Shown here: one piece after another, positions 9,878-25,690 of the stretch
Layout: the number at the start of each line of letters is the position of its first letter
Position numbering within the stretch: position 1 is the first letter of the stretch
Assembly (NCBI GenBank): GCA_944384125.1
Contig: CALWSF010000004.1
Coordinates: 38,148 to 102,147, forward strand
Origin: an uncultured Lachnospiraceae bacterium
GTDB taxonomy: Bacteria; Bacillota; Clostridia; Lachnospirales; Lachnospiraceae
Reading direction: 5' to 3'
Length of the DNA: 64,000 nt
The notes under the pieces: model-generated
What the model was told of the DNA's origin: nothing
The model's input: the letters and a program-made list of their open reading frames with translations, nothing else
The model's database searches: none
Position numbers and translations under genes: made by a program

Positions 9878-10453
9878 TTACTGAGCGGCAGCTTCAGAAT
9901 ACTCAGTTGTTACCAGTTCTTTGTAGGGAACACGTTTTTCAAGTTCTCCTGCTTCTTCCAGGATATTCTGGAGCAGATCAAAACTGCTTTCTTCGAATAT
10001 GGTATCGTTTTTCCATGTGTCCTGGCTCTTGTAGCGCTCTACGATTGCTGCAATTACAGCTTCATCTGTTTCCCTGAACTGAGGTCTGATCGTTCTGGCA
10101 ATTTCTTCCGATGAATGTGTATTCACATATTCGAGTCCCCGCTGAATGGCATTCGTAAATGCCTGAATGATTTCAGGGTTTTTCTCAATATAACTTTTTT
10201 TGGCGGAATATGCTGTGTATGGAACGTATCCCGAGTCAACTCCCAGGGAGGCGACAACAACTCCGTTCCCCTCATTTTCCAGTGCGGTGGCAAAGGGCTC
10301 GAACTCTACAGTGTAATCTGCGTCGCTGCTGGTAAAAGCGGCAGCAGTCAGACCGAAATCAATGCTCTGGTCGATAGTCAGATCAGTTTTGGGATCAATG
10401 CCGTTTTTCTTGAGAATATATTCAAATATCATTTCAGGCATGCCGCCGGCCCG
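9878..10453 (-). pseudogene. C-terminal fragment of the split ABC substrate-binding lipoprotein
   Basis: This 192-codon segment continues in frame the N-terminal fragment at 17475-17911. It begins inside the shared core with RAGGMPEMIFEY and carries the C-terminal lobe of an NMT1/SsuA/ThiY-type binding protein, including VGxVPYTA-like and EARTIRP-like blocks. Its apparent start codon at 10471 lies in the inserted element, so any product would lack a signal peptide and the N-terminal lobe. Joined to the other piece, 999 bases (332 residues plus stop) form one uninterrupted gene, the usual length of the family. No permease or ATPase gene is adjacent. Confidence 0.88.
10440..10453 (+). repeat. 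Left attachment-site core (attL/attR core copy 1)
   Basis: The sequence ATGCCGCCGGCCCG is identical to 17475-17488. Inside the element it is followed by CCGCAG and CATGATGA, which mirrors TCATCATG at the other end, as expected for the two half-sites of a serine-recombinase attP. Confidence 0.85.
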
Positions 10454-10477
10454 CCGCAGCATGATGAACATTTTGGT

Positions 10478-12055
10478 TTAAGGAAGTTCGTATTTAAAGA
10501 AAATATCCGGGTTTCCATTTTGATCTACTAGGATTTTATCAATTAATAATTCAATGTCTGCTCGATTAAGAAGATTTTGCGTTATTATTTTGTTCCATAT
10601 ATCAGAGGTGGAACTTATGCTTGTTTGTTCTATAGTATTATTATAGGATGAAAAGGAGGGGAGATTCTGAAGTGTTTTTTCAGTTTCTTTTATCTGCTTT
10701 ATTTTTTCTTCTTCAAGAGAAGTCAGAGCCTCACTCAGGTAGGGTGTTATATATGAAGAGTCTGAAAGTTCTGCTATTTTTTGTGAAATAATAGTTTTCA
10801 GTTCGTTTTTCAATTTTTGTATATGATGTTCTAGCCTTTGTCGGTAATTAAATACAGGGGAGATTTGATTATAATTTGGTGTTTTAATAGTTTGTATTAT
10901 ATCTGAATGTTTATCTTGAATAAGAGATAAATATTTGTATAAAGCAGTATTCAATGTTTCTTCTGTAATTAAATGAGAACGGGAACAAAAAGCTTTTCCC
11001 TTTTTATTATACGTTCCACATATATAATATTTTTTTCTATCGGGACGGTTAATAGCAGTCATTTTAGAACCACAGTCACTGCAATAAAGGCATCCGGAAA
11101 ATAGGTTTGTATGTTTTCTCTGGCCTCGATAATGATTATTTAAACGGCTGTTTTTTGTGTCTTGCAATAGTTTGACAGTTTCGTCATCAAATATTTTGGG
11201 ATGATGTCCATAAAAAACAAATTGCTGTTCTTTAGGAACTTTTTTGTCTTTGCCATTAATTGTATTTCTCTCTCTTTTGTGGGTACGGAATATTCCATTG
11301 TGATAATCGTTAAATAATGTATCCCTAACCATACTGTAATTCCACTTATAAACTACTTTGCGGTGATATGGAATTCCCAAAGAATTGTAACGTTCTTTTT
11401 GAAGCATAGTGGGAGTAGGAATATTTTTCTCATTTAGAATTTGTGCAATTTTACGGATACCGTTTCCTTCCAGATAAAGATCTTTTTCCATATGTAAAAT
11501 AGAAGCGGCTTCTTCATCGATCAATATTTTCTGTGGGGTTATTGGGCTGCGGATATATCCAAAAGGTGGAGTGCATTTTAGGGTACCATTTTCTTGTTCT
11601 AATCGTTTGACTCTTTTTACTTTTTTACTTGTATTTTTTACATGCCTTTCATTATCCCAGGTTTTTATGCCAAGAATATCGTCATCAGAATAAAAAGAAT
11701 CGTAATTATCATCAATAAGAATAATCCGTTTTCCCATTTCTTCCATTTCTTCCAAAAAAAGAAGTACTTTGGCATTGTGTCGGCCAATGCGGGATAAGTC
11801 TTTTGCAATGATTACATTGATACTATCCAGTTGTGCTAACATTTTTTTGAAATCGGGCCTGTCAAAAGAATATCCAGAATATCCATCATCTTCGTATATG
11901 CACCGAACAGTCATGTGATTATCTTTTGCAAATTGTTCAATGATTTTTTTTTGATTTTCTATGGATGAGTAGCGACTTTTGTTGTCGTCTCTAGAGAGGC
12001 GTACGTAGCCATCTACTAACAGGGGTAAGTCTGAAAAGGGAGTATTAGGATTCAT
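10478..12055 (-). CDS. Large serine recombinase (integrase/excisionase)
   Basis: A 525-residue site-specific recombinase. The resolvase catalytic domain spans about residues 12-150, with nucleophile Ser21 in YVRLSRDD, SIENQ near residue 31, and DLSRIGR near residue 86. A recombinase domain follows (residues 160-300, from PPFGYIRS). A zinc ribbon has Cys325, Cys328, Cys346 and Cys357, and a coiled coil lies near residues 400-440. This is the architecture of TnpX and phage phiC31-type integrases. It would cut both att sites and exchange strands through a Ser-DNA link. The ATG overlaps the stop of the upstream 82-residue ORF by four bases. It almost certainly inserted this element. Confidence 0.95.
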   Translation of the reverse strand: MNPNTPFSDLPLLVDGYVRLSRDDNKSRYSSIENQKKIIEQFAKDNHMTVRCIYEDDGYSGYSFDRPDFKKMLAQLDSINVIIAKDLSRIGRHNAKVLLFLEEMEEMGKRIILIDDNYDSFYSDDDILGIKTWDNERHVKNTSKKVKRVKRLEQENGTLKCTPPFGYIRSPITPQKILIDEEAASILHMEKDLYLEGNGIRKIAQILNEKNIPTPTMLQKERYNSLGIPYHRKVVYKWNYSMVRDTLFNDYHNGIFRTHKRERNTINGKDKKVPKEQQFVFYGHHPKIFDDETVKLLQDTKNSRLNNHYRGQRKHTNLFSGCLYCSDCGSKMTAINRPDRKKYYICGTYNKKGKAFCSRSHLITEETLNTALYKYLSLIQDKHSDIIQTIKTPNYNQISPVFNYRQRLEHHIQKLKNELKTIISQKIAELSDSSYITPYLSEALTSLEEEKIKQIKETEKTLQNLPSFSSYNNTIEQTSISSTSDIWNKIITQNLLNRADIELLIDKILVDQNGNPDIFFKYELP

Positions 12056-12300
12056 ATATTGTCCTCCTGTTTTTTTATTTTAGCAGGAAAGGACTCGTCT
12101 TTGTTGAAGTAAGATGGGTACAGATGATTTTGTATGATTTTTTCAATTCCTTTTTGCAACAATTCACTGCCTTCCCAATATGTGACAACAAGGAAGCCTT
12201 GTTGCGCTAACTGCTTTTTTTTCTGAAGAAGTGTTTCTTTGTCAATGTTTAATGATGCGGACAAATAAACAATTTGTTTTTTTGATGATATAGTAATCAC
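12052..12300 (-). CDS. Small unrecognised protein coupled to the recombinase
   Basis: An 82-residue, lysine-rich cytoplasmic protein starting at a GTG. Its stop overlaps the recombinase start (ATGA), so the two are translated together. I do not recognise a domain. The segment LLQKKKQLAQQGFLVVTYWEG is a helix followed by a strand. Position makes it a candidate accessory or directionality factor for the recombinase, but that is inference from context only. The GTG lies directly in the GAGGTG stretch that would otherwise be its ribosome binding site, so the true start may be further in. Confidence 0.5.
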   Translation of the reverse strand: MITISSKKQIVYLSASLNIDKETLLQKKKQLAQQGFLVVTYWEGSELLQKGIEKIIQNHLYPSYFNKDESFPAKIKKQEDNI

Positions 12301-12393
12301 CTCAGAGTAGAATTACTATATTTTATGCATTTGCAGGCTTATCCTATTTTATTCAGAAAAAGAAAAATGATACGTAAATGAAATAAGTTAATG

Positions 12394-12427
12394 AAAAGAG
12401 AATCCGCTGACGCAAGGCCAACGGATT
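12394..12427 (-). terminator. Terminator of the element's cargo operon
   Basis: On the minus strand an 11-bp stem with G-U pairs (AATCCGTTGGC / GTCAGCGGATT, loop CTTGC) is followed by CTCTTTT. It lies just after the yjiG-like stop and separates the cargo operon from the recombinase genes. Confidence 0.6.
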
Positions 12428-12481
12428 TGAGGGATAGTATTGAAAAGAAATGTGTTTGTTTTACTTATACAGTGATTGCTG

Positions 12482-12949
12482 TTATGCAATAAAACGCATC
12501 AGCAACATAGCAAGAGTTGCATTTATGATATTTATTGCGATAAGAATAGGATAAAAATTATTTTTTACATTAGATGTACCTAATATACGTCCCATATATT
12601 GAAGCGAAGCACCCAGAAGAAGAATACCGGGCACAAGAATAGTAATATTTTGATTTGTTAGCATTCCACTTGCATATAAGCTTGCAGCAACGCCAACTCC
12701 ACCACCGATGGAAAGAAATGCGGCTATTAAAACAGTAGCAGCAATTCCTGGCAATGAGAAAATTCCCATGACAGGTTCAAATACGCGCCCTAATATATCA
12801 GTAAGACCTGTAAGATTTAAAATCTGAATCATGGCAAAAGCAAATAATACATTGGGAACCATAGAATTTGCGGACAGTTTGTATCCATTTCTGGCTCCTT
12901 CCACGAATGCATCTATTATAGTTCCATTTGTTTTGGCCTCTTTTTCCAT
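12482..12949 (-). CDS. yjiG: YjiG family membrane protein (nucleoside-recognition/Gate domain)
   Basis: A 155-residue protein with four or five membrane helices. The FLSIGGGVGVAASLYASG segment resembles the Gate (nucleoside-recognition) domain of YjiG and spore maturation protein B. It is the last gene of the four-gene cargo operon and its start overlaps the preceding yjiH-like stop by one base. In E. coli, yjiG and yjiH lie beside iadA (isoaspartyl dipeptidase); the same pair next to an amidohydrolase here suggests a transport role for a peptide-like or amino-acid-derived substrate. The substrate is unknown. Confidence 0.82.
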   Translation of the reverse strand: MEKEAKTNGTIIDAFVEGARNGYKLSANSMVPNVLFAFAMIQILNLTGLTDILGRVFEPVMGIFSLPGIAATVLIAAFLSIGGGVGVAASLYASGMLTNQNITILVPGILLLGASLQYMGRILGTSNVKNNFYPILIAINIINATLAMLLMRFIA

Positions 12950-13614
12950 TAAAGTTCCCCCTTATATACTTTTGTTAGATAAAGTCGCATTAGGTTTGCT
13001 CCAAATATCTTGAAAGCAAATACTACGACCAGCGGTGTGATAATTGTAATGCTGAAGAATGGAAACAGTACAGCACATGACGAAAGGTAATTTGTTAGCG
13101 TGGCGCCGGCAGAGTACTGAAAACAGGCGAAAATGGTTTTCTGTCGGTCGTTGATGAGGGAAGAATTGCTGAGCTCATTTAACATGGATGCCCCCGCATC
13201 TGCAGACTGAAGGCTGGCAATCAGAGTCAAACCACAAAGACCGGGGATTCCCATCAAAGGCATCAGGATAGGAGTTAATAGTTTTTGTGCAGCCTTCAAC
13301 CCGTCCAGGTATTCAACAACCTTTACAACTCCCAGGGCCAGCATGACTGCGGGGAAAATTGTCAAAGCAAAGAGCCAGGCGTCTTTACCGCCGGAACCAC
13401 CGGTTCCACGAAAGTCATTGGCTAATGTGCCGGCGCCTTCTGTCAGGGAACCAAGTTTTCCAAAACCACCCAGAACATTTGTAAAATCTAATGCCCGGAT
13501 AGGACCTTCAGCAGACTGAAAAATACCAGAAAAAAACAGAATTGCAACGATAAGAGCGATATATCCATACCACCGGACATGGACATCTAACTGGTATAAT
13601 TTATTATCATTCAT
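12949..13614 (-). CDS. yjiH: YjiH family membrane protein (nucleoside-recognition/Gate domain)
   Basis: A 221-residue polytopic membrane protein, close to the length of E. coli YjiH. The central segment ILMPLMGIPGLCGLTLIASLQSADAG is a Gate-type helix-turn region, and there are five or six hydrophobic stretches. It lies 16 bases after the carrier gene and directly before yjiG, so the two products probably form one two-part membrane complex. The same split pair accompanies a dipeptidase in enterobacteria. No enzymatic motif is visible. Confidence 0.82.
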   Translation of the reverse strand: MNDNKLYQLDVHVRWYGYIALIVAILFFSGIFQSAEGPIRALDFTNVLGGFGKLGSLTEGAGTLANDFRGTGGSGGKDAWLFALTIFPAVMLALGVVKVVEYLDGLKAAQKLLTPILMPLMGIPGLCGLTLIASLQSADAGASMLNELSNSSLINDRQKTIFACFQYSAGATLTNYLSSCAVLFPFFSITIITPLVVVFAFKIFGANLMRLYLTKVYKGEL

Positions 13615-13630
13615 GGATAGAACCTCCTTT

Positions 13631-15040
13631 TTAATATCCGATTAACTCTGCGAAAGTAATGACAGCAGCGCTGATTCCCCATTCAATGGCGACAATGGGA
13701 AAAGCAAAGCGAATCCACTCTGTATAACTAATATTTGCGATTCCAATACAGCTGGTTGTAACTGAACTAGTAGGAATAATCGCATTAGTAAATCCGTCTC
13801 CGCACTGAAATGCCAAGATACTTATTTGCAGAGAGATACCGCATATGCGGGCTATGGATCCCATAATAGGCATGACAAGAGTTGCCTGACCACTGCCGGA
13901 TGGTACAAAAAAGTTGATGACGATGTTGGAGATAAGCATTCCTATAGCAGTAAGAAAGCTGGGAAGTGCCTGAAGGAGTTCTGCTAGTTCATATACGATA
14001 GTATCCATAATCATTCCGTCCTGCATTATGATTAAAACACCGCGCCCCATTCCAATTACCAAGCTTGCAAAAACCATATCTTTGGCTCCGGAAAGCCATG
14101 ACTGAGCGATTTTATTAGGGTTTAGTTTACCAACAAGACCGGAAAGGACACCCATGGCAAACAGGACAGGCGCCATCTGGGATGTGCTCCAAGATAAAAA
14201 CAGAGCGCCAAATATCATAATGGAGAAACAGATTAGCATAACAAATAAAACGAGAAAATGAAACGGAGTGAAAGATTCAGGTTTTGTTAGCTCATATACC
14301 TGTACTTGAGAGTTTTCTTCAGAGCGGTATACGTAACTTTTTTTAGGATCCTTTTTTACCATTATTGCATATCGAATTGTATAGAGATATACAGCTAAAA
14401 GTGTTATGGCGTGAAATACCGCACGTAACGGAAGACCGGAATAGGTTGGAAGTCCCAAGATCCCTTGAGCGACAGCTGTTGTATAGGGATTAAAGGTTCC
14501 GCAGCTGAACCCCACAAAAGTACCCATTAAAATCATGGCAGTTCCAACCATATCATCATAACCGACGCGGCGGGCCAGAGCAATTCCCATTGGAATGAAA
14601 ATGATACATTCAGTGCTGAAGCCCATGAGTCCGCCAAGCATAGAAAAGACAGTCATAATAATAAAAACCATCAACTTTTCTCTGTTATGCAGTCGGTATG
14701 CAATTTTGTCAATTGCAAGCTGCAGTGTTCCAGTATCATTGATAATGGAAAAACTGCCGCCTGCAATAAATACAAAAAAGATTAAAGAAGACATATCTAC
14801 AAGCCCGGCCGGGATTGCGTTAAAGAGCTGATACAATGTAGTTGGAGATGCTGCAGTTGCGGTGTAGGAATTTGGATCTATTACAAGGTTTCCTGATGCA
14901 TTTTCAACATATGTATACTGGCCGGCCGGGATAATGTAGGTAAGAACCGCACATAAAATTATAATCGCAAAGATAATCACACATGTATGGGGAACCGTTA
15001 TGGAGGATAGCTTTGAGATATGCTTTCCTTTCTGTTTCAT
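13631..15040 (-). CDS. YfcC family carrier (C4-dicarboxylate/amino-acid type)
   Basis: A 469-residue secondary transporter with about twelve membrane helices. The N-terminus has the family pattern VPHTCVIIFAIIILCAVLTYIIPAGQY, and FFVPSGSGQATLVMPIM near residue 375 is the conserved re-entrant segment of YfcC/DcuC-like carriers. Relatives move short-chain fatty acids, dicarboxylates or arginine/ornithine. In this operon it probably imports the substrate, or exports the product, of the amidohydrolase encoded 25 bases upstream. The direction and substrate are not readable from sequence. Confidence 0.85.
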   Translation of the reverse strand: MKQKGKHISKLSSITVPHTCVIIFAIIILCAVLTYIIPAGQYTYVENASGNLVIDPNSYTATAASPTTLYQLFNAIPAGLVDMSSLIFFVFIAGGSFSIINDTGTLQLAIDKIAYRLHNREKLMVFIIMTVFSMLGGLMGFSTECIIFIPMGIALARRVGYDDMVGTAMILMGTFVGFSCGTFNPYTTAVAQGILGLPTYSGLPLRAVFHAITLLAVYLYTIRYAIMVKKDPKKSYVYRSEENSQVQVYELTKPESFTPFHFLVLFVMLICFSIMIFGALFLSWSTSQMAPVLFAMGVLSGLVGKLNPNKIAQSWLSGAKDMVFASLVIGMGRGVLIIMQDGMIMDTIVYELAELLQALPSFLTAIGMLISNIVINFFVPSGSGQATLVMPIMGSIARICGISLQISILAFQCGDGFTNAIIPTSSVTTSCIGIANISYTEWIRFAFPIVAIEWGISAAVITFAELIGY

Positions 15041-15065
15041 TTAGATTCCTCCTCTGCGAAAAAAA

Positions 15066-16328
15066 TTACTCTACGGTTATTGTTTCGTATGTTTTACCTT
15101 CTTTCATGACAAAAGCACAATCCAAAAGTGCCTTGGGATCGGTCATCAAATCTCGTTTCCATGCAGAAATATCGGCCATCTTTCCGGGTTCGATGGTTCC
15201 AATCAGATGAGAAAGTCCAAGAATTTCTGCGTTTGTCCGGGTTGCAGCTTTTAAAATCCGGAAAGGTTCGATACCGGAGTTCATCCAGGATTCAAACTCA
15301 TAGCCGTTTTCATAAGGATGATGAACAGCAATAAAATCGGTACCATATCCAAGACGCAGGCGGCTGTTTATTATAACTTTTCTGCCTTCTTTTAAGCGTT
15401 TGGAGTACTGACGAAGCTTTGCCTGGAACTGTGGTATTTTCTGTTTCAGTGATTCCTCGTTAAGGTTAATAATATCATCATATGGACAGAATGTAGGAAC
15501 GAGGTAAACATTGAGATCTTCCATTACACGGGCGGTGTCTTCTGTTATCAGAGAACCATGCTCCATTCCATCAATACCCATAAGGGCCACTTTCTTCATC
15601 TGTTCAGAGTTATAGATGTGAGCAGTAACAGTTCTTCCGAGTTCGTGAGCAGTATCGATAATAACTTTGATCTCCTCATCGCTGAGCTGCTGATCATCCG
15701 GTGTGTCATTTGGAGTGCTGAATCCACCGTTGATCATGATTTTTATAAAATCAGACCCCATTTTAATTTCATTTCGCACTGCATGGCGGAAGAATTCAAC
15801 GCCGGTTCCGATTGTAGGTGTCATGGCGGCAAAAGCTTCAGCCAGATCAGGATTCGTTCTCAAGTATTGGGAATGATCTCCGTGGCTTCCAATATCAGCC
15901 ATATAATGAGGGGTAACAACCATTCGTGCTCCCGGGAAAATTCCCAAGTCGATCATCTCACGGGCTGCAAGGCTTCCACGTGCTTCATACGTGGAGTTTC
16001 CAACACAACGAATTGTGGTAAAGCCGCGATACAAACATTCTCTTGCAACATAGAGATGGCACATACTTTTCCATGCAGGACCACGGTAAACTATGTCATG
16101 ATTTCTGTTATGCCAGTCAATAAACTGACTGTGCACATGAGCATCAATCATACCAGGAGTTACAGTGCAGTCACTCAGATCAATTGTTTCTGTTTGCTCA
16201 GGATGTGGAAGATTTTGTCCGACAGCTTCAATTGTTTTATCATGGATGAGAATTTCCATGTTTTCTTGAAGTTTGTCCTGTATTCCGTCATACAGTTTTC
16301 CGCACTTGATTAATTTGTACTGTTCCAT
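15066..16328 (-). CDS. Metal-dependent amidohydrolase (imidazolonepropionase-like)
   Basis: A 420-residue TIM-barrel hydrolase of the COG1228 group, which includes Xaa-Pro and Lys/Arg-carboxy dipeptidases. Metal ligands are all visible: His64 and His66 in DAHVH, probable carbamylated Lys196 in FIKIMINGG, His237 in TAHIY, His257 in GMEHG and Asp331 in GYGTD. An intact site with a binuclear or mononuclear zinc centre is expected. The protein is cytoplasmic. It is the first gene of the cargo operon with a GGAGG site before its ATG, and is read divergently from the LysR regulator. Hydrolysis of an N-acyl amino acid or dipeptide is the likely role; the exact substrate is open. Confidence 0.88.
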   Translation of the reverse strand: MEQYKLIKCGKLYDGIQDKLQENMEILIHDKTIEAVGQNLPHPEQTETIDLSDCTVTPGMIDAHVHSQFIDWHNRNHDIVYRGPAWKSMCHLYVARECLYRGFTTIRCVGNSTYEARGSLAAREMIDLGIFPGARMVVTPHYMADIGSHGDHSQYLRTNPDLAEAFAAMTPTIGTGVEFFRHAVRNEIKMGSDFIKIMINGGFSTPNDTPDDQQLSDEEIKVIIDTAHELGRTVTAHIYNSEQMKKVALMGIDGMEHGSLITEDTARVMEDLNVYLVPTFCPYDDIINLNEESLKQKIPQFQAKLRQYSKRLKEGRKVIINSRLRLGYGTDFIAVHHPYENGYEFESWMNSGIEPFRILKAATRTNAEILGLSHLIGTIEPGKMADISAWKRDLMTDPKALLDCAFVMKEGKTYETITVE

Positions 16329-16445
16329 TTTTCTCCTCCTTTTCTGAAACTATTGATTTATATGTGAATTTGTTAGGTTTAAAATTGATAAAAGTAAAAA
16401 TGTGATGTATATTCTATGTTTACTGATTAAATAATACACTATTTA

Positions 16446-16473
16446 TTGATTTTATGGAAATATGAATTATAAT
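16446..16473 (+). promoter_or_regulatory. Predicted promoter of the element's LysR gene
   Basis: TTGATT at 16446-16451 and TATAAT at 16468-16473 are separated by 16 bases. It lies in a 191-base, very AT-rich divergent region that must also hold the amidohydrolase promoter and the regulator's binding sites. Confidence 0.55.
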
Positions 16474-16519
16474 TGAATATATATGATTTTTATATCAGTA
16501 ATAATGATGAGGGTTTAAG

Positions 16520-17437
16520 ATGAAAACAGAACAAATTCTTTTAATTATTGAGATCAGCAGGCAGGGTTCAATATCAAAGGCGGCTCAGAAACTGTTCATG
16601 GCACAGCCAAATGCCAGCAATGCAGTTTATGCTCTGGAGCAGGAACTGGGATATCAGATATTAGAGCGCACGTATAATGGTGTAACTTTTACGCCAAGAG
16701 GAAAAAAATTCCTTCAATATGCATATTCCATTCAGAGGAATCTTGACAATATATATCTTTTAAAGCAGGAAGAGAAGAAGATAAGACTTTTTGTGGCTAC
16801 ATATGCCTATTCATTTGCCGAAAATGCGTTTGTGCGTTTTTGCAAAAGTTATATTAATTCTGCTAAGACGTTAAACTGTAGTCTGACAAAAATAGGAACA
16901 GTAAAAGAAGGCATGGAGATGCTGATAAATGACATTGTTGATATCTCTTTGATTGTATGCAGACGTGAACTATATGGATATTTTGAAGCTGAGTTCAAAC
17001 AAAATAATTTGCATCCCATTTTTCTTGATTATGTGTCTCTTTATATTACATTATCAGAAAATCATCCTATGGCCTGTAAAGAAGCCGACAATTTACTGGA
17101 ATATGTGGATTATCCTTGTGTATCAAATGCCGGATTAGCCAGCAATCTGGCACCGCCAGAAGTAGAAGAACTTTTGCGGTCTGTGAAAATGCATATTGTG
17201 ATGGGACCAGATGAAGCTCGCTTATCTCTTCTTGAAAGCGGAAATACATTTGCTATTAGTACTCCATATCCTAAAAAGGTATTAAAAGAGCATGGGCTTG
17301 TATGCAGGAAAATACCAAATGCGGAACGCTGCATGCTTCTGTTAGTAAGGGAGGAGGAATATTTAAATGAAGAATTGCAGAATTATATTAGAATTGTTCG
17401 TGAAGAAATACAGAAATGGTTAGATGACATTGTATAA
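16520..17437 (+). CDS. LysR family regulator of the cargo operon
   Basis: A 305-residue LysR-type transcription factor. The winged helix-turn-helix covers residues 1-65 (SKAAQKLFMAQPNASNAVYALEQELG) and an effector-binding domain follows. A GAGGG site precedes the ATG. It is divergent from the amidohydrolase-YfcC-YjiH-YjiG operon, the classical arrangement in which the regulator activates the neighbouring operon on binding the substrate. The gene travels inside the mobile element and its stop is 37 bases from the right attachment core. Confidence 0.9.
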   Translation: MKTEQILLIIEISRQGSISKAAQKLFMAQPNASNAVYALEQELGYQILERTYNGVTFTPRGKKFLQYAYSIQRNLDNIYLLKQEEKKIRLFVATYAYSFAENAFVRFCKSYINSAKTLNCSLTKIGTVKEGMEMLINDIVDISLIVCRRELYGYFEAEFKQNNLHPIFLDYVSLYITLSENHPMACKEADNLLEYVDYPCVSNAGLASNLAPPEVEELLRSVKMHIVMGPDEARLSLLESGNTFAISTPYPKKVLKEHGLVCRKIPNAERCMLLLVREEEYLNEELQNYIRIVREEIQKWLDDIV

Positions 17438-17474
17438 GTTGATTGGTAAATATTTTGTGTCATCATGTAGGGGT

Positions 17475-17488
17475 ATGCCGCCGGCCCG
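17475..17488 (+). repeat. Right attachment-site core (core copy 2)
   Basis: ATGCCGCCGGCCCG is identical to 10440-10453. The element side reads TCATCATGTAGGGGT before it. The reverse complement of the other element end reads TCATCATGCTGCGG, so the two arms form a dyad around the core. Confidence 0.85.
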
Positions 17489-17911
17489 GCCGCCCAGTAC
17501 TTTTGTGCCCTTCAGATCCTGCCACGAAAAATCTTCCCGGGCTGTTCGCCCGACCAGAAAATTACCGGCTCTCTGTGTAAGCTGCGCGAAATTCACGGCA
17601 TAATCCTGCGATCCTTCCTGATAAACGTAAATACTGGCTTCTGAGCCCATAAAACCGATGTCAGCATCTCCTGAAATAAGAGCAGTCATAACCTTATCGG
17701 CACCTGCTCCGTTTACGAGAGTAAGGTCAATGCCCTCTTCTTCAAAGTATCCCAGCTCAATTGCGGCATACTGTGGTGCATAAAAAATAGAATGGGCAAC
17801 CTCATTGAGCGTTACCGGTGTCAGCTCTCCAGAGCTGCCGCCGCTCTGGCATCCGGAAAGTGAGGCGGATAAAAGAGCGGCTGTCAGAAGAACGGAAATC
17901 CTTTTTTTCAT
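17475..17911 (-). pseudogene. N-terminal fragment of the split ABC substrate-binding lipoprotein
   Basis: The first 141 codons plus the shared core of an NMT1/SsuA/ThiY-type binding protein. A lipoprotein signal peptide ends in the lipobox LSGC (Cys21), followed by the lobe-1 segment FYAPQYAAIELGYFEEEGIDL and a typical ALISGDADIGFMG. The frame continues from the core into the element for a few codons and stops at 17420, giving a truncated 163-residue product. A CAGGAG site precedes the ATG, so the fragment may still be expressed. Rejoined to 9878-10453 it yields 332 residues. The ligand cannot be told; related proteins bind sulfonates, nitrate or pyrimidine precursors. Confidence 0.88.
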
Positions 17912-18094
17912 ATTCTGCTCCTGTGAATTTTACTTATGATTTATGATATCGGCAAAAAATCTGTTCGTGCCTGTCCGGTGCCATCCGGTTGTACATTTGG
18001 AGAAAGCTCTGCATTGACAAGACGGATGATACCGGGTATTTTAATAAAGATGATAAAATGCAAAAAAGATAAATGAGGAAACGGCGGAGAAAAG

Positions 18095-19458: not shown

Positions 19459-19615
19459 GTGCATAAGAAAATGCCGGGTGCGGCAGGAAATTTGCGGCGG
19501 GAGAAGGGATTTATATTCTGTCGGTTTAAAGCAAGAAAAAAACAAGATTTCTGATTAAGCCGGAGAAGGAGTTCTGTGATATGATAGGAAAAACTGTATG
19601 GAGGTAAGACGGGTA

Positions 19616-22267
19616 ATGGAAAACTGTTCGATACACAGACGCATTCTTGATTATGCATTTGCAGATACAGGTGCACTGTACCGGGATTTCGGGATTTCCC
19701 GGCAGGGGTACAGTGATGAACAGGTTGAGGAAAGCCGGCTGCGCTATGGCAGCAATATCATGTCAGGCCGGGCATCAGACACGGTTTTTTATCGTTTGCG
19801 GAGAGCTTTTATCAACCCTTTTGCCGTTATTCTGTTTGTGCTGGCAAGCATCTCATTTGTGACGGATGTTCTTCTGGCATCAAATTTCAGCCGAAATATG
19901 ACTACCGTTATAATTATACTCTGTATGCTTCTCATCAGCGGAATCGTGCGTTTTATCCAGGAAATACGGGCAAAGCGGATTGCGGATCGCCTGACGCGGA
20001 TGATTGCCTCCGATGTGCTTGTATACAGAAACGGAAAATGGAAAGGGATATCCTCAGAGAAACTGGTGGTCGGCGATTGGGTCCGTCTTTTTGCCGGAGA
20101 GCGTGTTCCGGCGGATATCCGTCTGACTGCCGCAAATGATATGTTTGTTTCGCAGTCAGTTATTTCGGGCGAGAGTGAGGTACTGGAGAAAAACTGCAGA
20201 ACACTTTCAGGAGGGAAAACTCTTTCTTATGCAGAATACAGCAATATTGTTTTTATGGGTTCCTCCATTATCGGAGGTATGGGGGAAGGAATCGTCCTTG
20301 CCGTAGGCCGTGATACAGTTTATGGCGGCTTTTCACGAACAGAAATCAGACTGAAAAATGGCTTTGATCAGGGAGCGAATTCTATTGCCCGGGTGCTGAT
20401 ACGATTTATGGCAATACTGATTCCCATTGTTTTCGCAGCCTGTGGAATCACGAAAGGAAGCTGGCTCTCCGCATTTCTTTTTGCTCTGTCAGTTGCTGTG
20501 GGACTGACTCCGGAAATGCTTCCCATGGTAATAAGCGCATGCCTGGCCAGGGGAAGTGCGGCTATGGGGAAAAAGCAGACTGTGGTTAAGAACATCAATG
20601 CCATGCAGGGTTTTGGCAGTATGGATATTCTGTGTGTGGATAAGACCGGCACTCTGACCGGGGACACGGTTCTTCTGGAATATTATATGGATATTCTGGG
20701 AAATGAGAGTGAAACAGTTCTGGATTATTCTTATCTGAACAGCCTGTATCATACAGGAATCAGAAATCATCTGGACAGTGCTGTCCTCCTGTGCGGGGAA
20801 ATGCCGGGGCACGGAGATCATTTCCGGGAATTTGCGGCATGTCATCCCAAACTGGATGAACTGCCTTTTGACTATGACAGGAAGTTTGCCAGTGTTCTGG
20901 TCAGAGGAAATGAGGAAAATGTGCTTATTGTTAAAGGCAGTCTTGATGAGGTGTGCAGTCGATGCAGCCATTTTGAATACAGGGGAAAGCGCAGTCCCAT
21001 GGAAAATGACGGCCGCGCCAGTGTTCACGCCATTGTGGATGAAATGCTGGAAGACGGCATGAAGATTCTGGCAGTGGCGTATAAACCGATGAAAGGGGAA
21101 CGGCTTGACGTCAGTGATGAGAGGGATCTCATTCTTTTGGGATATCTGGCATTTTTTGATGCTCCGAAGAAAACCGCAGCTGACGCTGTCAGCAGGCTTC
21201 AGAAGCTTCATGTCGGAGTCAGAGTGCTGACCGGAGATCATAGGAGTGTTGCAGTTTCTGTGTGCCGAAGGCTGGGGATTGACACTTCGGGGACTCTGAC
21301 GGGGACGGAACTGGACTGTCTTTCAGATGACGTGGCAAGAGTCAGAATTGAGCAGACTACTGTGTTTGCGGAATTATCTCCCGGACAGAAGGTGCGCATC
21401 CTGCGCATTCTGCAGGCCAATGGACACACAGTAGGCTTTCTGGGAGACGGGATGAATGATTTGCCTGCCATTGTAGAATCAGATGTGGGAATTTCCGTAG
21501 ACACGGCGGCAGATGCAGTCAGGGAAGCGGCAGATGTCATTCTGCTTAAAAAAGACCTTAATGTACTGGAGGCAGGGATTAAGGAAGGCCGGAATGCATT
21601 TTTCAATGTGTCAAAATATATCAGGATTACGGCATCTTCCAATTTTGGAAATATTCTGTCCGTTGTCATTGCAAGTGTGTTTCTCCCGTTTTTTCCAATG
21701 ACATCTGTGCAGCTGCTTCTGCTGAATCTGCTCTATGACCTGCTGTGTCTTGTGCTTCCCTGGGACCGCGTGGATGAGGATACATGTGACCGGCCGCTGG
21801 AATGGTCAGGGAGAACCCTGGGCCGGTTTATGAGGTTCTTCGGGCCGGTTAGCTCTGTTTTTGATATTCTGACATTTGCGTATCTGTTTTTTGTTCTCTG
21901 TCCCATGCTCTGCGGCGGAAGTTTTGCCGAGCTGTGCCAAAGCGGACAAAAGCTTCAGTTTATCGCATTATTTCAGACAGGATGGTTTCTTGAATCTATG
22001 TGGACACAGGTACTGATTCTTCATCTGCTCCGGACAAAAAAAGTACCAATCATACAGAGCAGGCCTTCCTGTCCTGTGATGGCGGTTACAATAATGGGGA
22101 TTATATTATTTACTGTTCTGACCTTTACACCGGTGGGACACCTGATTGGTCTGGCTGCTTTGCCTCATACTTATTTTGGGTTTCTCATCATAATTGTTTT
22201 GCTGTACTTACTGATGGTTACACTGGCCAAAAGCTGGTATATAAAAAAATACCATGAGCTGTGTTGA
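19616..22267 (+). CDS. mgtA: Magnesium-transporting P-type ATPase, MgtA type (first copy)
   Basis: An 883-residue P3B-type ATPase. ATG 19616 is chosen because GGAGG lies 11 bases upstream; the ATG at 19598 overlaps that site. Phospho-acceptor Asp342 sits in CVDKTGTLTGD, the actuator loop reads SGESE rather than TGES, the MgtA signature [11 protein letters not shown] precedes it, and GDGMNDLPA is the hinge motif. About ten membrane helices are visible. The protein should import Mg(2+) down its electrochemical gradient at the cost of ATP. An orphan winged-helix gene follows 17 bases later and a second mgtA-like gene after that. No M-box was seen upstream. Confidence 0.9.
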   Translation: MENCSIHRRILDYAFADTGALYRDFGISRQGYSDEQVEESRLRYGSNIMSGRASDTVFYRLRRAFINPFAVILFVLASISFVTDVLLASNFSRNMTTVIIILCMLLISGIVRFIQEIRAKRIADRLTRMIASDVLVYRNGKWKGISSEKLVVGDWVRLFAGERVPADIRLTAANDMFVSQSVISGESEVLEKNCRTLSGGKTLSYAEYSNIVFMGSSIIGGMGEGIVLAVGRDTVYGGFSRTEIRLKNGFDQGANSIARVLIRFMAILIPIVFAACGITKGSWLSAFLFALSVAVGLTPEMLPMVISACLARGSAAMGKKQTVVKNINAMQGFGSMDILCVDKTGTLTGDTVLLEYYMDILGNESETVLDYSYLNSLYHTGIRNHLDSAVLLCGEMPGHGDHFREFAACHPKLDELPFDYDRKFASVLVRGNEENVLIVKGSLDEVCSRCSHFEYRGKRSPMENDGRASVHAIVDEMLEDGMKILAVAYKPMKGERLDVSDERDLILLGYLAFFDAPKKTAADAVSRLQKLHVGVRVLTGDHRSVAVSVCRRLGIDTSGTLTGTELDCLSDDVARVRIEQTTVFAELSPGQKVRILRILQANGHTVGFLGDGMNDLPAIVESDVGISVDTAADAVREAADVILLKKDLNVLEAGIKEGRNAFFNVSKYIRITASSNFGNILSVVIASVFLPFFPMTSVQLLLLNLLYDLLCLVLPWDRVDEDTCDRPLEWSGRTLGRFMRFFGPVSSVFDILTFAYLFFVLCPMLCGGSFAELCQSGQKLQFIALFQTGWFLESMWTQVLILHLLRTKKVPIIQSRPSCPVMAVTIMGIILFTVLTFTPVGHLIGLAALPHTYFGFLIIIVLLYLLMVTLAKSWYIKKYHELC

Positions 22268-22284
22268 GAAAGGAGGAATCTGTT

Positions 22285-22782
22285 ATGAAAAAAAATATCG
22301 GTTTTGTCAGTATGGATTCTTCCCTTGCAGGGTGGCTTTATGAGAAACTCCGCGTTTCCGCTCCGGACACTCCGTCGGCGAAAGAACTGATGGAGGGAAT
22401 CGGGGATTTGATAAATGGCACAGCGGCCTCTCTTATGATTGAAGTGGGAGAAAATGAGAGAATGAATCCTGTAAGCGATACGGTCTGCTGCGGCTCTCTT
22501 TCCATTGATCTGAAATTGCGGAGGGTAATACGGGATGGAAGAGAGATTGCGCTGACGCCAAAAGAGTTTGATATTCTGTATTTTCTGGCGCGCAACCGCG
22601 GGGAGGTTTTTACAAAAGAACAGATTTATCAGGCTGTGTGGGAGAGCGATTATCTTCTGGATGACAGCAACATTATGGCATTTATCCGAAAGCTCAGGAA
22701 GAAGATTGAGCCCAATCCGGATGCTCCGGAATACATACTGACAATATGGGGGATCGGATATAAATTTAATGACAGGCTGTAG
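22285..22782 (+). CDS. Orphan OmpR-type winged-helix regulator without a receiver domain
   Basis: A 165-residue protein. ATG 22285 follows GGAGG. Residues 70-165 are a Trans_reg_C winged helix of the OmpR/PhoB type (LTPKEFDILYFLARNRGEVFTKEQIY, ending IWGIGYKF). The N-terminal 65 residues are too short for a CheY fold and lack the phospho-acceptor pattern. It lies between two mgtA-like genes and is probably translated from the first one's transcript. It may control these Mg(2+) transporters, with signal input through the short N-terminal segment rather than phosphorylation. The role is inferred from position. Confidence 0.82.
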   Translation: MKKNIGFVSMDSSLAGWLYEKLRVSAPDTPSAKELMEGIGDLINGTAASLMIEVGENERMNPVSDTVCCGSLSIDLKLRRVIRDGREIALTPKEFDILYFLARNRGEVFTKEQIYQAVWESDYLLDDSNIMAFIRKLRKKIEPNPDAPEYILTIWGIGYKFNDRL

Positions 22783-22798
22783 CGCAGTGTTTTATCGG

Positions 22799-22849
22799 AC
22801 CGCAAGGAAATCGCAAGGTTTTGACCATGTGATTTTCCCTGCGGTTTTT
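22799..22849 (+). terminator. Terminator or attenuator before the second mgtA-like gene
   Basis: ACCGCAAGGAAATC (22799-22812) pairs imperfectly with GATTTTCCCTGCGGT (22831-22845) and is followed by T5. It lies between the regulator and the second ATPase gene, so it either separates two units or limits read-through. Confidence 0.62.
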
Positions 22850-22924
22850 GTATGCTTTTAAAGGCTGAGTGCTGTCGGGCACGGGAATTTCCCTGTTCTG
22901 CCAGAAACTAAGGAGGTAAAACCA

Positions 22925-25690
22925 ATGAATAAGAGAGAGAATCGCCTGGCTGTCCGCCAGGCAGCAAAAAAGGCAGTGATCCGTGACGAACAGAACCGCC
23001 GCATACAATATGCGGCGACCGGCTCTGTCAGGGATGTTCTGGAAAATCTGAATACTGCACTTTGCGGTCTTGATGCAGAAACCGCAGCGGTACACCGCAG
23101 CAGGTATGGCAGCAATAAAGTTACACATGAGAAAAGAAAATCTCTGGGAAAGAGGCTGGCGGGAGCATTCGTCAATCCATTCACGGCTATTCTGCTCTTC
23201 CTTGCGCTTGTGTCTGCGATGACAGATATGGCTTTTCCGTATTTCTCCCTTTTCGGGAGCCGGCCGGAGGATTTTGACTGCCTGACTGTGGTTATTATTC
23301 TGACAATGGTCGTAATTTCCGGTACGCTTCGTTTTGTACAGGAATCAAGAAGCGGAAGTGCTGCTGAGAAGCTTCTGGCTATGATTACAACGACCTGTAC
23401 GGTTATCCGCAAAGAGCAGGGGAAAAAGGAGATCCCTATGGATGATCTTGTGGTCGGAGATATTGTGCATCTGTCCGCAGGAGATATGATCCCCGCGGAT
23501 GTGAGAATTTTGGATGCAAAAGATTTGTTTGTCAGTCAGGCAAGTCTTACAGGAGAGAGTGAACCTGTTGAGAAAACATCCGGTGCAAGTGAGGTGTGCG
23601 ACAGCATTACCGGGTATTCAAATATTGCTTTTATGGGAAGCAATGTGGTATCCGGCACCGCGCTTGCAGTGGCAGTCTGTGTGGGAGATTATACTTTATT
23701 TGGTTCCATGGCGTCCGCAGTTGCGGGAGAAGCAGTGGAAACAAGTTTTACCAAAGGCGTGAACGCTGTCTCCTGGGTACTGATTCGATTTATGCTTATA
23801 ATGGTTCCGCTGGTGTTCTTTATCAACGGGATTACAAAAGGAGACTGGCTGGATGCATTTTTATTCGGGATCTCCATAGCTGTCGGTCTGACTCCGGAAA
23901 TGCTTCCGATGATTGTAACTACCTGTCTTGCCAAGGGCGCGGTGTCTATGAGCAGGAAGAGGACTATTGTCAAAAATCTCAATTCCATACAGAATTTCGG
24001 CGCAATCGATATTCTCTGCACAGACAAAACCGGTACACTGACTCAGGATAAGGTTGTGCTGGAATATCATCTCAATGTAAACGGAGAGGATGACACAAGA
24101 GTACTGCGCCACGCTTATCTCAACAGTTATTTTCAGACCGGCTATAAGAATCTGATGGATCTGGCTATTATTCATAAGACGGAGGAGGCGGAGGCGGAAG
24201 ATCCCCGGCTTACCGACCTGTCTGAAAATTATGAGAAAGTAGATGAAATCCCGTTCGATTTTACCCGCCGGCGTCTTACAACAGTGGTGCGGGACAAAGC
24301 CGGAAAAACACAGATGGTAACAAAAGGTGCGGTGGAAGAAATGCTTCCTGTCTGCTCTTTTGCAGAATACGGAGGAGATGTGAGGCCGCTGACGGATGAA
24401 ATCCGGTGCCGGATTCTCCGGACCGTGGATGAGCTTAATGAAAAAGGCTTTCGTGTCCTTGCCATAGCGCAGAAAAGCAATCCGTCTCCGGAAAGTGTTT
24501 TTGGTGTCAGGGATGAGTGCGATATGGTTCTGATGGGGTATCTGGCATTTCTTGATCCTCCGAAGGAATCTGCCGCGGATGCAATAAAGGTGCTGAAAGA
24601 GCATGGCGTACTTACAAAAATCCTGACCGGCGACAATGATAAGGTTACCCGTACCATCTGCAGACAGGTGGGAATAGAAGTCCGGAACATGCTTCTTGGC
24701 TCTGATCTGGAGAAGATGAACGATTCCGAGCTGGCAGAAGCGGCGGAAACCACAGATATATTTGCAAAACTGACACCGGATCAGAAAGTAAGAGTGGTTT
24801 CCGTTCTCAGAGAGAATGGACATACAGTCGGCTTTATGGGAGACGGGATCAATGATGCTGCAGCCATGAAGTCTGCTGATATCGGTATTTCGGTGGACAC
24901 TGCCGTAGATGTGGCCAAAGAATCGGCTGATGTTATTCTGCTGGAAAAAGATCTGATGGTTCTGGAGCAGGGAATTATTGAGGGGCGCAAGACGTATGCC
25001 AATATGATCAAATATATTAAAATGACAGCGTCCTCCAATTTCGGCAATATGTTTTCTGTGCTCGCCGCATCAGCGCTGCTGCCATTTCTGCCCATGATGA
25101 GCGTGCATCTTATTTTTCTGAACCTGATTTATGATCTGTCCTGTACCGCAATCCCATGGGACAATGTGGATGAGGAGTTTATTGCAAAACCAAGAAAATG
25201 GGATGCGTCCAGTGTCGGAAACTTTATGATCTGGATAGGACCCACCAGTTCTGTTTTCGATTTTCTGACTTATATTTTTATGTATTTCATATTCTGTCCT
25301 CTGTTTGTTTCCGGAGGCGTGCTGTATAACGATCTTGCAAACCATTTCAGCGGCGCTCAGCTTCTTCAGATGCAGGCTGCCTATATGGGAATGTTCCAGG
25401 CCGGCTGGTTTGTGGAATCCATGTGGAGTCAGACTCTCGTTATTCACATGATCCGCACGCCGAAACTGCCGTTTATTAAAAGCCACGCATCGGCGCCCCT
25501 GACGCTGCTTACACTGGCCGGAATTACGGCACTTACGGTTATTCCGTTTACACCATTTGGTTCCATGATAGGGTTTACTGCGCTGCCGTCTGCCTATTTT
25601 TTATATCTGATTCCGTGCATCCTGCTTTATATGATGCTGGCAACGAGCCTCAAAAAGGCGTATGTGCGCCATTACGGAGAATTACTTTAA
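22925..25690 (+). CDS. mgtA: Magnesium-transporting P-type ATPase, MgtA type (second copy)
   Basis: A 921-residue P3B-type ATPase related to the first copy throughout. Asp367 is in [11 protein letters not shown], the actuator motif is the canonical [25 protein letters not shown] is the MgtA signature, and [10 protein letters not shown] is the hinge. The N-terminus is longer and more basic than in the first copy. Ten membrane helices are expected, with Mg(2+) import as the function. An AGGAGG site precedes the ATG. A 51-residue membrane protein gene follows 19 bases after the stop. The canonical actuator and hinge motifs suggest this is the more typical enzyme of the pair. Confidence 0.93.

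Follow-up and report, generated by a model that had tools for sequence, protein, structure and literature searches.

The window analysed here comprises 64,000 nucleotides from an uncultured Lachnospiraceae bacterium (assembly GCA_944384125.1, contig CALWSF010000004.1, positions 38,148 to 102,147 of the forward strand). It contains a 7.0-kb element which splits a gene for a substrate-binding protein into two parts, and which carries a gene for a large serine recombinase adjoining its left-hand junction. The 14-mer ATGCCGCCGGCCCG stands at both ends of the element, and when the flanks are joined at this repeat, i.e., when the element is removed, the two parts of the gene (423 + 576 nucleotides) form a single frame of 999 bases, encoding 332 amino acids without an internal stop. 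Restoration of a frame by removal of DNA at a short shared core is a trait of gene-intervening elements.

The element and its empty site

The features that define the element and its site (att, attachment site; attP, that of the circular form) are as follows.

17489-17911, minus strand: 5′ part (423 nucleotides) of the interrupted YtlA-like substrate-binding-protein gene, NMT1 family; residues 1-147 of the joined product
9878-10453, minus strand: 3′ part (576 nucleotides) of the same gene, joined in frame at the repeat
17475-17488: 14-bp repeat, junction on the side of the N-terminal half (attL-like)
10440-10453: 14-bp repeat, junction on the side of the C-terminal half (attR-like)
10460-10470, minus strand: attP arm TGTTCATCATG, 27 nucleotides from the other arm in the deduced circle, with a GG of GGnGG central
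17456-17467, plus strand: the other attP arm, TGTGTCATCATG
10478-12055, minus strand: large serine recombinase (Pfam), 525 amino acids, with relatives in or beside the same gene
12052-12300, minus strand: open reading frame (ORF) of 82 amino acids with a GTG start, overlapping the start of the recombinase; candidate recombination directionality factor
12320-12327, minus strand: −10-like CATAAAAT with ATA 15-18 nucleotides upstream (sigma-E-like), before the 82-residue ORF

No third copy of the 14-mer was found in the window at up to two mismatches, and two or more matches of this type arose in 3 of 100 shuffles. The 14 bp of identity are an upper bound on the core; the two junctions of relatives have only about GGnGG in common. 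The recombinase has three domains (Resolvase, Recombinase and Zn_ribbon_recom in Pfam), and the guanine-plus-cytosine content of the element is 0.378, versus 0.470 and 0.483 in its flanks. Just inside the repeats lie the two halves of a dyad, CATGATGA (10460-10467) and TCATCATG (17460-17467); in the deduced circular form, 27 nucleotides separate the arms TGTTCATCATG and CATGATGACACA, with the first GG of GGCGG at the centre. The same arm spacing was read by eye in two relatives (G301 and G303; genomes are given here by G numbers and loci by L numbers), and the fit was poorer in a third (G247).

Eight genomes of the same genus were compared, the window's own among them. Four carry the gene uninterrupted, with 80-84% identity along almost the full length. 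In the remaining four, which include the window's, the gene is in two pieces that meet near residue 147; the recombinases of the other three differ from that of the window (61-62% identical), and none of the three matches the cargo of the window's element. The insert measures 3.2 kb in G301; in G299 and G303 the locus is divided between contigs. The original prediction of a compact, AT-rich serine-recombinase element, with a 14-bp direct repeat at both ends, a large recombinase just inside the left one, inner ends forming a dyad and an interrupted gene rejoining in frame, is thus borne out in each of these particulars. The uninterrupted copies that it had suggested seeking in related genomes exist, so that it is not the case that all relatives carry two half-genes with varied content between them. 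These sequences support a compact, site-specific element whose site is found empty in relatives.

Insertion sites, recombinases and cargo

Relatives of the recombinase (E<=1e-120) were sought in 299 genomes of the family, representing 298 genera. Ten genomes other than the window's have one, in all ten cases beside the C-terminal half of the target gene, and a search of 392 genomes of the order added six more. In all 17 genomes searched for the gene (those 16 and Blautia parvula) it is split in two, and the ends of the halves overlap in the range of residues 123-156; this count includes G625, where three contigs separately hold the recombinase and each half of the gene, and adjacency was not seen. 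Overlapping tblastn ends had hinted at a long direct repeat, which was rejected when the DNA itself gave a short core. All junctions read at this site, here called site A, fall at codons for GG(R/K)(A/K)GG|MP.

Recombinases at site A are up to 96-99% identical across genera, whereas the C-terminal halves of the target genes beside them are 62-70% identical in nucleotides, which argues that the elements move between genera. In seven between-genus pairs, the number of synonymous substitutions per site (dS) is 0.12-1.03 for the recombinase and saturated for the target C-terminal half; in the pair G201-G603, dS of the recombinase is saturated instead. There is thus good support for the element, for its site and for its mobility. 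In viral contigs, a pattern-based search limited to close relatives gave just one match to the recombinase, at 31%; plasmids gave none at 1e-60, and phage records gave two at 31-33%, one of them an unannotated faecal record. Elsewhere in the window's own genome (G000:C95:1685-6047), there are three serine recombinase matches in tandem on one strand.

Site A is one of several sites. The target gene is present in 158 of the 299 family genomes and looks split in 29 of these, with both sides found in 23 and one side only in six (G163, G254, G107, G145, G191 and G296; the piece in G254 runs to the end of its contig, and in G191 there is, in addition, a weak N-side match of 21 residues). A thirtieth, G246 (L115), which seemed multiply split, was dropped because its gaps lie within a scaffold, as three runs of N with duplicated ends; Rfam gave no matches on this locus. 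By residue, the sites are A (about 147), B (near 190), C (245), D (92, in one genome) and E (70). Two elements are apparent in G253, G273 and G228 (where the second join is doubtful) and three in G256. The 16 recombinases compared group by site, with 38-75% identity within sites and 14-23% between them, except that those of B and E are 31-36% identical; site D was assigned no recombinase. Beyond the family, the target gene has matches in 78 genomes of the class (81 of 245, three being family members). None of the 78 has two complementary pieces (E<=1e-25), and four have partial or stop-bearing copies (G729, G705, G870 and G821).

The position of the junction relative to the recombinase varies among the 22 site-A elements. 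In 16, the recombinase frame crosses the junction; it stops short of it in the window, G054, G264, G256 and G247, and is broken in G205. The window's frame ends 30 nucleotides before the core, and that of G054 ends 21 nucleotides before it and was, for this reason, not counted despite being flagged as fused by the script. In six elements (G262, G301, G148, G639, G299 and G303; loci L097, L099, L103, L106, L108 and L042), the recombinase runs in frame into the C-terminal half of the target, and in ten more it ends 26 nucleotides beyond the core in another frame. The opposite junction encodes a conserved tail, HDVT-F/W-E-N/H-IR-x-IYEWTS, in G148, G639, G299 and G303, and only its start in G301 and G262. 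The deduced circular forms in G201, G556, G586, G603, G614 and G289 encode another conserved tail, TYxNVN-x-E-T/S-IVILCNWVD, which by eye looks related to the first; the tail in G228 differs. In these elements, attP thus appears to lie within the recombinase gene, and integration would swap the C-terminus of the enzyme. Such a swap does not apply to the window, whose recombinase stops before the core. A literature search, as far as the sources were accessible, gave no relevant report of attP within a serine integrase gene.

The remainder of the element is its cargo.

12482-12949, minus strand: YjiG-like Gate protein, 155 amino acids, passing the NF007811 cut-off
12949-13614, minus strand: second Gate protein, YjiH-like by position and size
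13631-15040, minus strand: YfcC/DcuC-type carrier, 300.8 bits, NCBIfam YfcC cut-off 500
15066-16328, minus strand: amidohydrolase; best NCBIfam model Xaa-Pro dipeptidase, below cut-off
16520-17437, plus strand: LysR-type regulator, divergent from the operon

These genes agree in outline with the original prediction; the carrier falls below the YfcC cut-off. The prediction also rightly noted that yjiG and yjiH accompany iadA in Escherichia coli. The K-12 order is hypT-iadA-yjiG-yjiH, which likewise brings together a LysR regulator, an amidohydrolase and two Gate-type proteins; unlike it, the window has a YfcC-type carrier in addition, and the annotated E. coli stretch has no such element. The proposal that the operon is the moving unit is not supported. 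Cargo varies among site-A elements (though G289 and G614 have cargo genes in common), and the window's operon genes are in none of the other site-A elements read, 23 further loci included (E<=1e-5); a 51% YfcC match in L005/L049, which are one contig, falls outside that element. The cassette that the prediction suggested seeking at other sites does occur in part, as G035 has an amidohydrolase-YjiH-YjiG-LysR set without YfcC (85, 74, 70 and 53% identical), with no recombinase or target-gene match within the 18 kb read. The operon with its regulator is one interchangeable cargo. A second amidohydrolase in the window's own genome (G000:C71:3098-4330) is 51% identical to that of the cargo.

For 15 elements, both ends lie on a single stretch, and their inserts, taken between tblastn ends, are smallest in G256 (3.0 kb) and G301 (3.2 kb) and largest in G228 (12.0 kb); coordinates give larger ones of about 26.7 kb (G148) and 37.4 kb (G639). 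The last, from Blautia parvula (L105/L106), is an integrative and conjugative element at the same site, with a type IV secretion system coupling protein, a TraG-like ATPase, a TrbL-like protein and a relaxase; ATP-binding cassette (ABC) transporter and two-component genes were noted in it by eye. The cargo of small elements includes a PRD/CAT antiterminator (G054), Abi_2 (G556, G289), DUF1538 (G247) or AAA_14 (G262), and toxin-antitoxin-like pairs were named by eye in G262 and G301. The 12-kb element of G228 (L113) encodes a nitrogenase-component-like protein; iron-ABC-transporter-like genes were also noted in it by eye. Outside the element, at 19598-25690 of the window, two long ORFs next to each other (889 and 921 amino acids) resemble magnesium-type P-type ATPases by eye.

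The interrupted gene and the small reading frame

The product of the target gene belongs to the NMT1/SsuA family of binding proteins and, by eye, has a lipoprotein signal. At 33 loci, the stretches up to about 1.5 kb from the gene contained no ORF flagged for the ABC signature motif; permease-like ORFs were seen by eye near the gene in L065 and L074. That the interrupted gene looks like a sporulation gene was overlooked by the original prediction. Among the Lachnospiraceae genomes (about one per genus), SpoIVA is present in 193 of 299, and the target gene occurs in 154 of these 193 versus 4 of the 106 SpoIVA-negative genomes (154 with both, 4 with the gene only, 39 with SpoIVA only, 102 with neither). 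The gene is, moreover, often preceded by a promoter-like motif.

17942-17968, minus strand: sigma-K-like promoter AC-N16-GATATCATA before the interrupted gene, fitting the relaxed pattern only

Of 60 distinct regions upstream of the target gene, 40 have the relaxed pattern, AC-N14-18-nATAnnnTA at 12-48 nucleotides before the start, and 20 have a strict form requiring CATA; for 385 control ORFs taken from these loci, the figures are 16 and 1, respectively. Site-A recombinase genes make up 6 of the 12 control matches listed for the relaxed pattern (16 in all). As far as the available text of the sources goes, ytlA, ytlC and ytlD are listed among the sigma-K genes of Bacillus subtilis and, by the table there, are also found in C. 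lentocellum (PMC3416734); ytlC of Clostridioides difficile is listed as sigma-K dependent (PMC3789822), and no ytl gene name was found in the accessible part of PMC517825. Taken together, this makes a strong but indirect case from sequence that the target gene is linked to sporulation.

The second feature that points to sporulation is the small ORF. Upstream of the recombinase, a script pattern found an ORF of 60-82 residues in 16 of the 22 site-A elements, at distances from a 3-nucleotide overlap to 170 nucleotides; three more (G228, G256 and G205) have a similar one by eye, and G603 has one elsewhere in the element. Eight residues are invariant across the 15 aligned members. Within 90 nucleotides upstream, 11 of the 16 have a sigma-E/K-like promoter motif (ATA-N15-18-CATAnnAT or AC-N15-17-CATAnnnTA), versus 2 of 359 control ORFs. 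The predicted model is beta-alpha-beta-alpha (mean predicted local distance difference test score, pLDDT, 72; predicted template modelling score, pTM, 0.52). By analogy with known systems, the small ORF is a candidate directionality factor.

Interpretation and comparison with known systems

We regard it as likely, from these sequences, that the element is a gene-intervening element of the skin type, excised in the sporulating mother cell. A serine recombinase would insert the circular form, via attP, into a target site (attB) at the codons for GGRAGG|MP of the YtlA-like gene, which would form part of the late sigma-K programme of the mother cell. In growing cells, the gene would be split and silent without any cost. 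Once sporulation is under way, a mother-cell sigma factor would switch on the small ORF beside the recombinase, its product would act as the directionality factor for precise excision, and the 332-codon gene would be restored before sigma-K transcribes it. Thus, the gene would probably be stitched back in the dying mother cell, as for skin, the spore chromosome would retain the element, and the amidohydrolase/transport operon with its LysR regulator would travel as a passenger. The sequences themselves show the element, its empty site, the site and recombinase clade common to its relatives, the sporulation-linked distribution of the gene and the promoter-like motifs; sigma-factor control, the role of the small ORF and developmental excision are each what we infer.

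Several points weigh against this reading. The term 'YtlA-like' serves as a label for the gene. The association with SpoIVA (Fisher p 3e-41) ignores phylogeny. Both the relaxed sigma-K pattern and the small-ORF patterns were chosen after viewing the sequences, and the window's promoter lacks the strict CATA form. The 16 small ORFs fall into 11 similarity clusters, and so their promoters are not 16 independent cases; three of the 22 elements (G556, G603 and G289) have no small ORF upstream of the recombinase, and in G556 and G289 none was seen. Searches of Pfam, PHROG, PDB and predicted folds gave no known relative or fold match for the small ORF (in PDB and the fold searches, nothing at E<=0.001). 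The join search demanded an open frame, so that its 31 of 31 joins are not independent evidence, and five joins are doubtful (G201, G225, G247, site A of G256 and site C of G228). The case for purifying selection on the gene while split comes mainly from two pairs, and a recent insertion would likewise leave the frames intact.

A wider reading, towards which we lean only slightly, is that this sigma-K-type gene of Lachnospiraceae is a landing hub for at least four recombinase clades, each with a site of its own, such that some genomes would need two or three excisions to rebuild the gene in the mother cell, and that in many site-A elements the swap of the recombinase tail at attP is a built-in change of state of the enzyme between its integrated and circular forms.

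The alternative that survives best, which we nevertheless hold to be rather unlikely, is an ordinary mobile element, a small relative of integrative and conjugative elements, that uses a dispensable conserved gene as attB, inactivates it and is excised rarely, for transfer only. It would account for the movement between genera seen in the seven pairs and for the 37-kb conjugative relative. Intact frames suit it if the insertions are recent; of the 26 genomes with joined pieces, all have open frames except for frameshifts in G205, which counts against this alternative. The ratio of nonsynonymous to synonymous substitutions (dN/dS) for the target is 0.03-0.20 in five computable comparisons, four of them with dS above 1.4, and is not decisive because dS is saturated in most pairs; intact pieces and low dN/dS fit either regulated reconstitution or recent insertion. 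What an ordinary element fails to predict is a sporulation-linked target, mother-cell-type promoter motifs at the adjacent small ORF and at least four recombinase clades at different sites in one gene.

It is improbable that the window's copy is a degenerate, immobile member, as might be read from its 525-residue recombinase, which stops 30 nucleotides short of the core where 16 of 22 cross the junction; no damage is seen in its three recombinase domains, in either att arm or in the 82-residue ORF, and other recombinases also stop early. More improbable still is a vegetative transporter component whose link to sporulation reflects only the shared ancestry of spore-formers. A generic NMT1/SsuA domain, and an association based on roughly one genome from each genus and on no tree, would suit this view; against it, the promoter motifs form a line of evidence separate from the distribution of the gene.

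A further gene, probably of sporulation type, appears split in 29 of 158 carrier Lachnospiraceae genomes, by several distinct recombinase clades. If excision in the mother cell is right, terminal differentiation of cells would provide mobile DNA with safe harbours, to an extent that the literature seen describes for no single gene; many natural sets of attB, attP, recombinase and directionality factor would become available, and a link between spore formation and the exchange of metabolic, Abi-type and conjugative cargo would become testable. In the literature searched (titles and starts of abstracts, with few subscription journals), no report of this gene as a target was found, nor any single gene with four sites for distinct recombinase clades.

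As to its class, the element has no relaxase or conjugation genes in its six Pfam-scanned ORFs and the small ORF, and no phage structural or replication genes in Pfam and NCBIfam scans. In PHROGs, to which only the recombinase and the small ORF were compared, the former matches an integrase family and the latter nothing. Two known recombinases were rejected by NCBIfam cut-offs: CcrB of staphylococcal cassette chromosome (SCC) elements (73.7 versus 900 bits) and the fdxN recombinase XisF (83.3 versus 375 bits).

The comparisons that follow draw on the accessible parts of the papers cited. The split sporulation genes named are sigK, spsM, spoVFB, gerE and yabG (PMC10747680). In skin of C. difficile, CD1231 is the recombinase and CD1234 the directionality factor, a 72-residue protein whose control by sigma-E and SpoIIID limits excision to the mother cell (PMC5025042). 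The present element shares with it a large serine recombinase, a small ORF of similar size and a split gene of putative mother-cell type; skin, however, splits sigK and has 19 genes, whereas here a substrate-binding-protein gene is split and excision is predicted. SP-beta in spsM, vfbin in spoVFB and yin in yabG likewise interrupt genes, here known sporulation genes, and have sporulation-linked excision (PMC4191935, PMC10747680), but are described as prophage-like, unlike the present element. In Bacillus cereus, gerE is interrupted by gin (28.6 kb, with three recombinase genes and a requirement for GirX as a further factor), which is, like ours, a non-prophage serine-recombinase element with low GC and a short core (9 bp in gin), and gerE is hit in another species by a prophage (PMC5595907); by comparison with gin, the present element is smaller, at 7 kb, has one recombinase, carries metabolic cargo and sits in a different gene.

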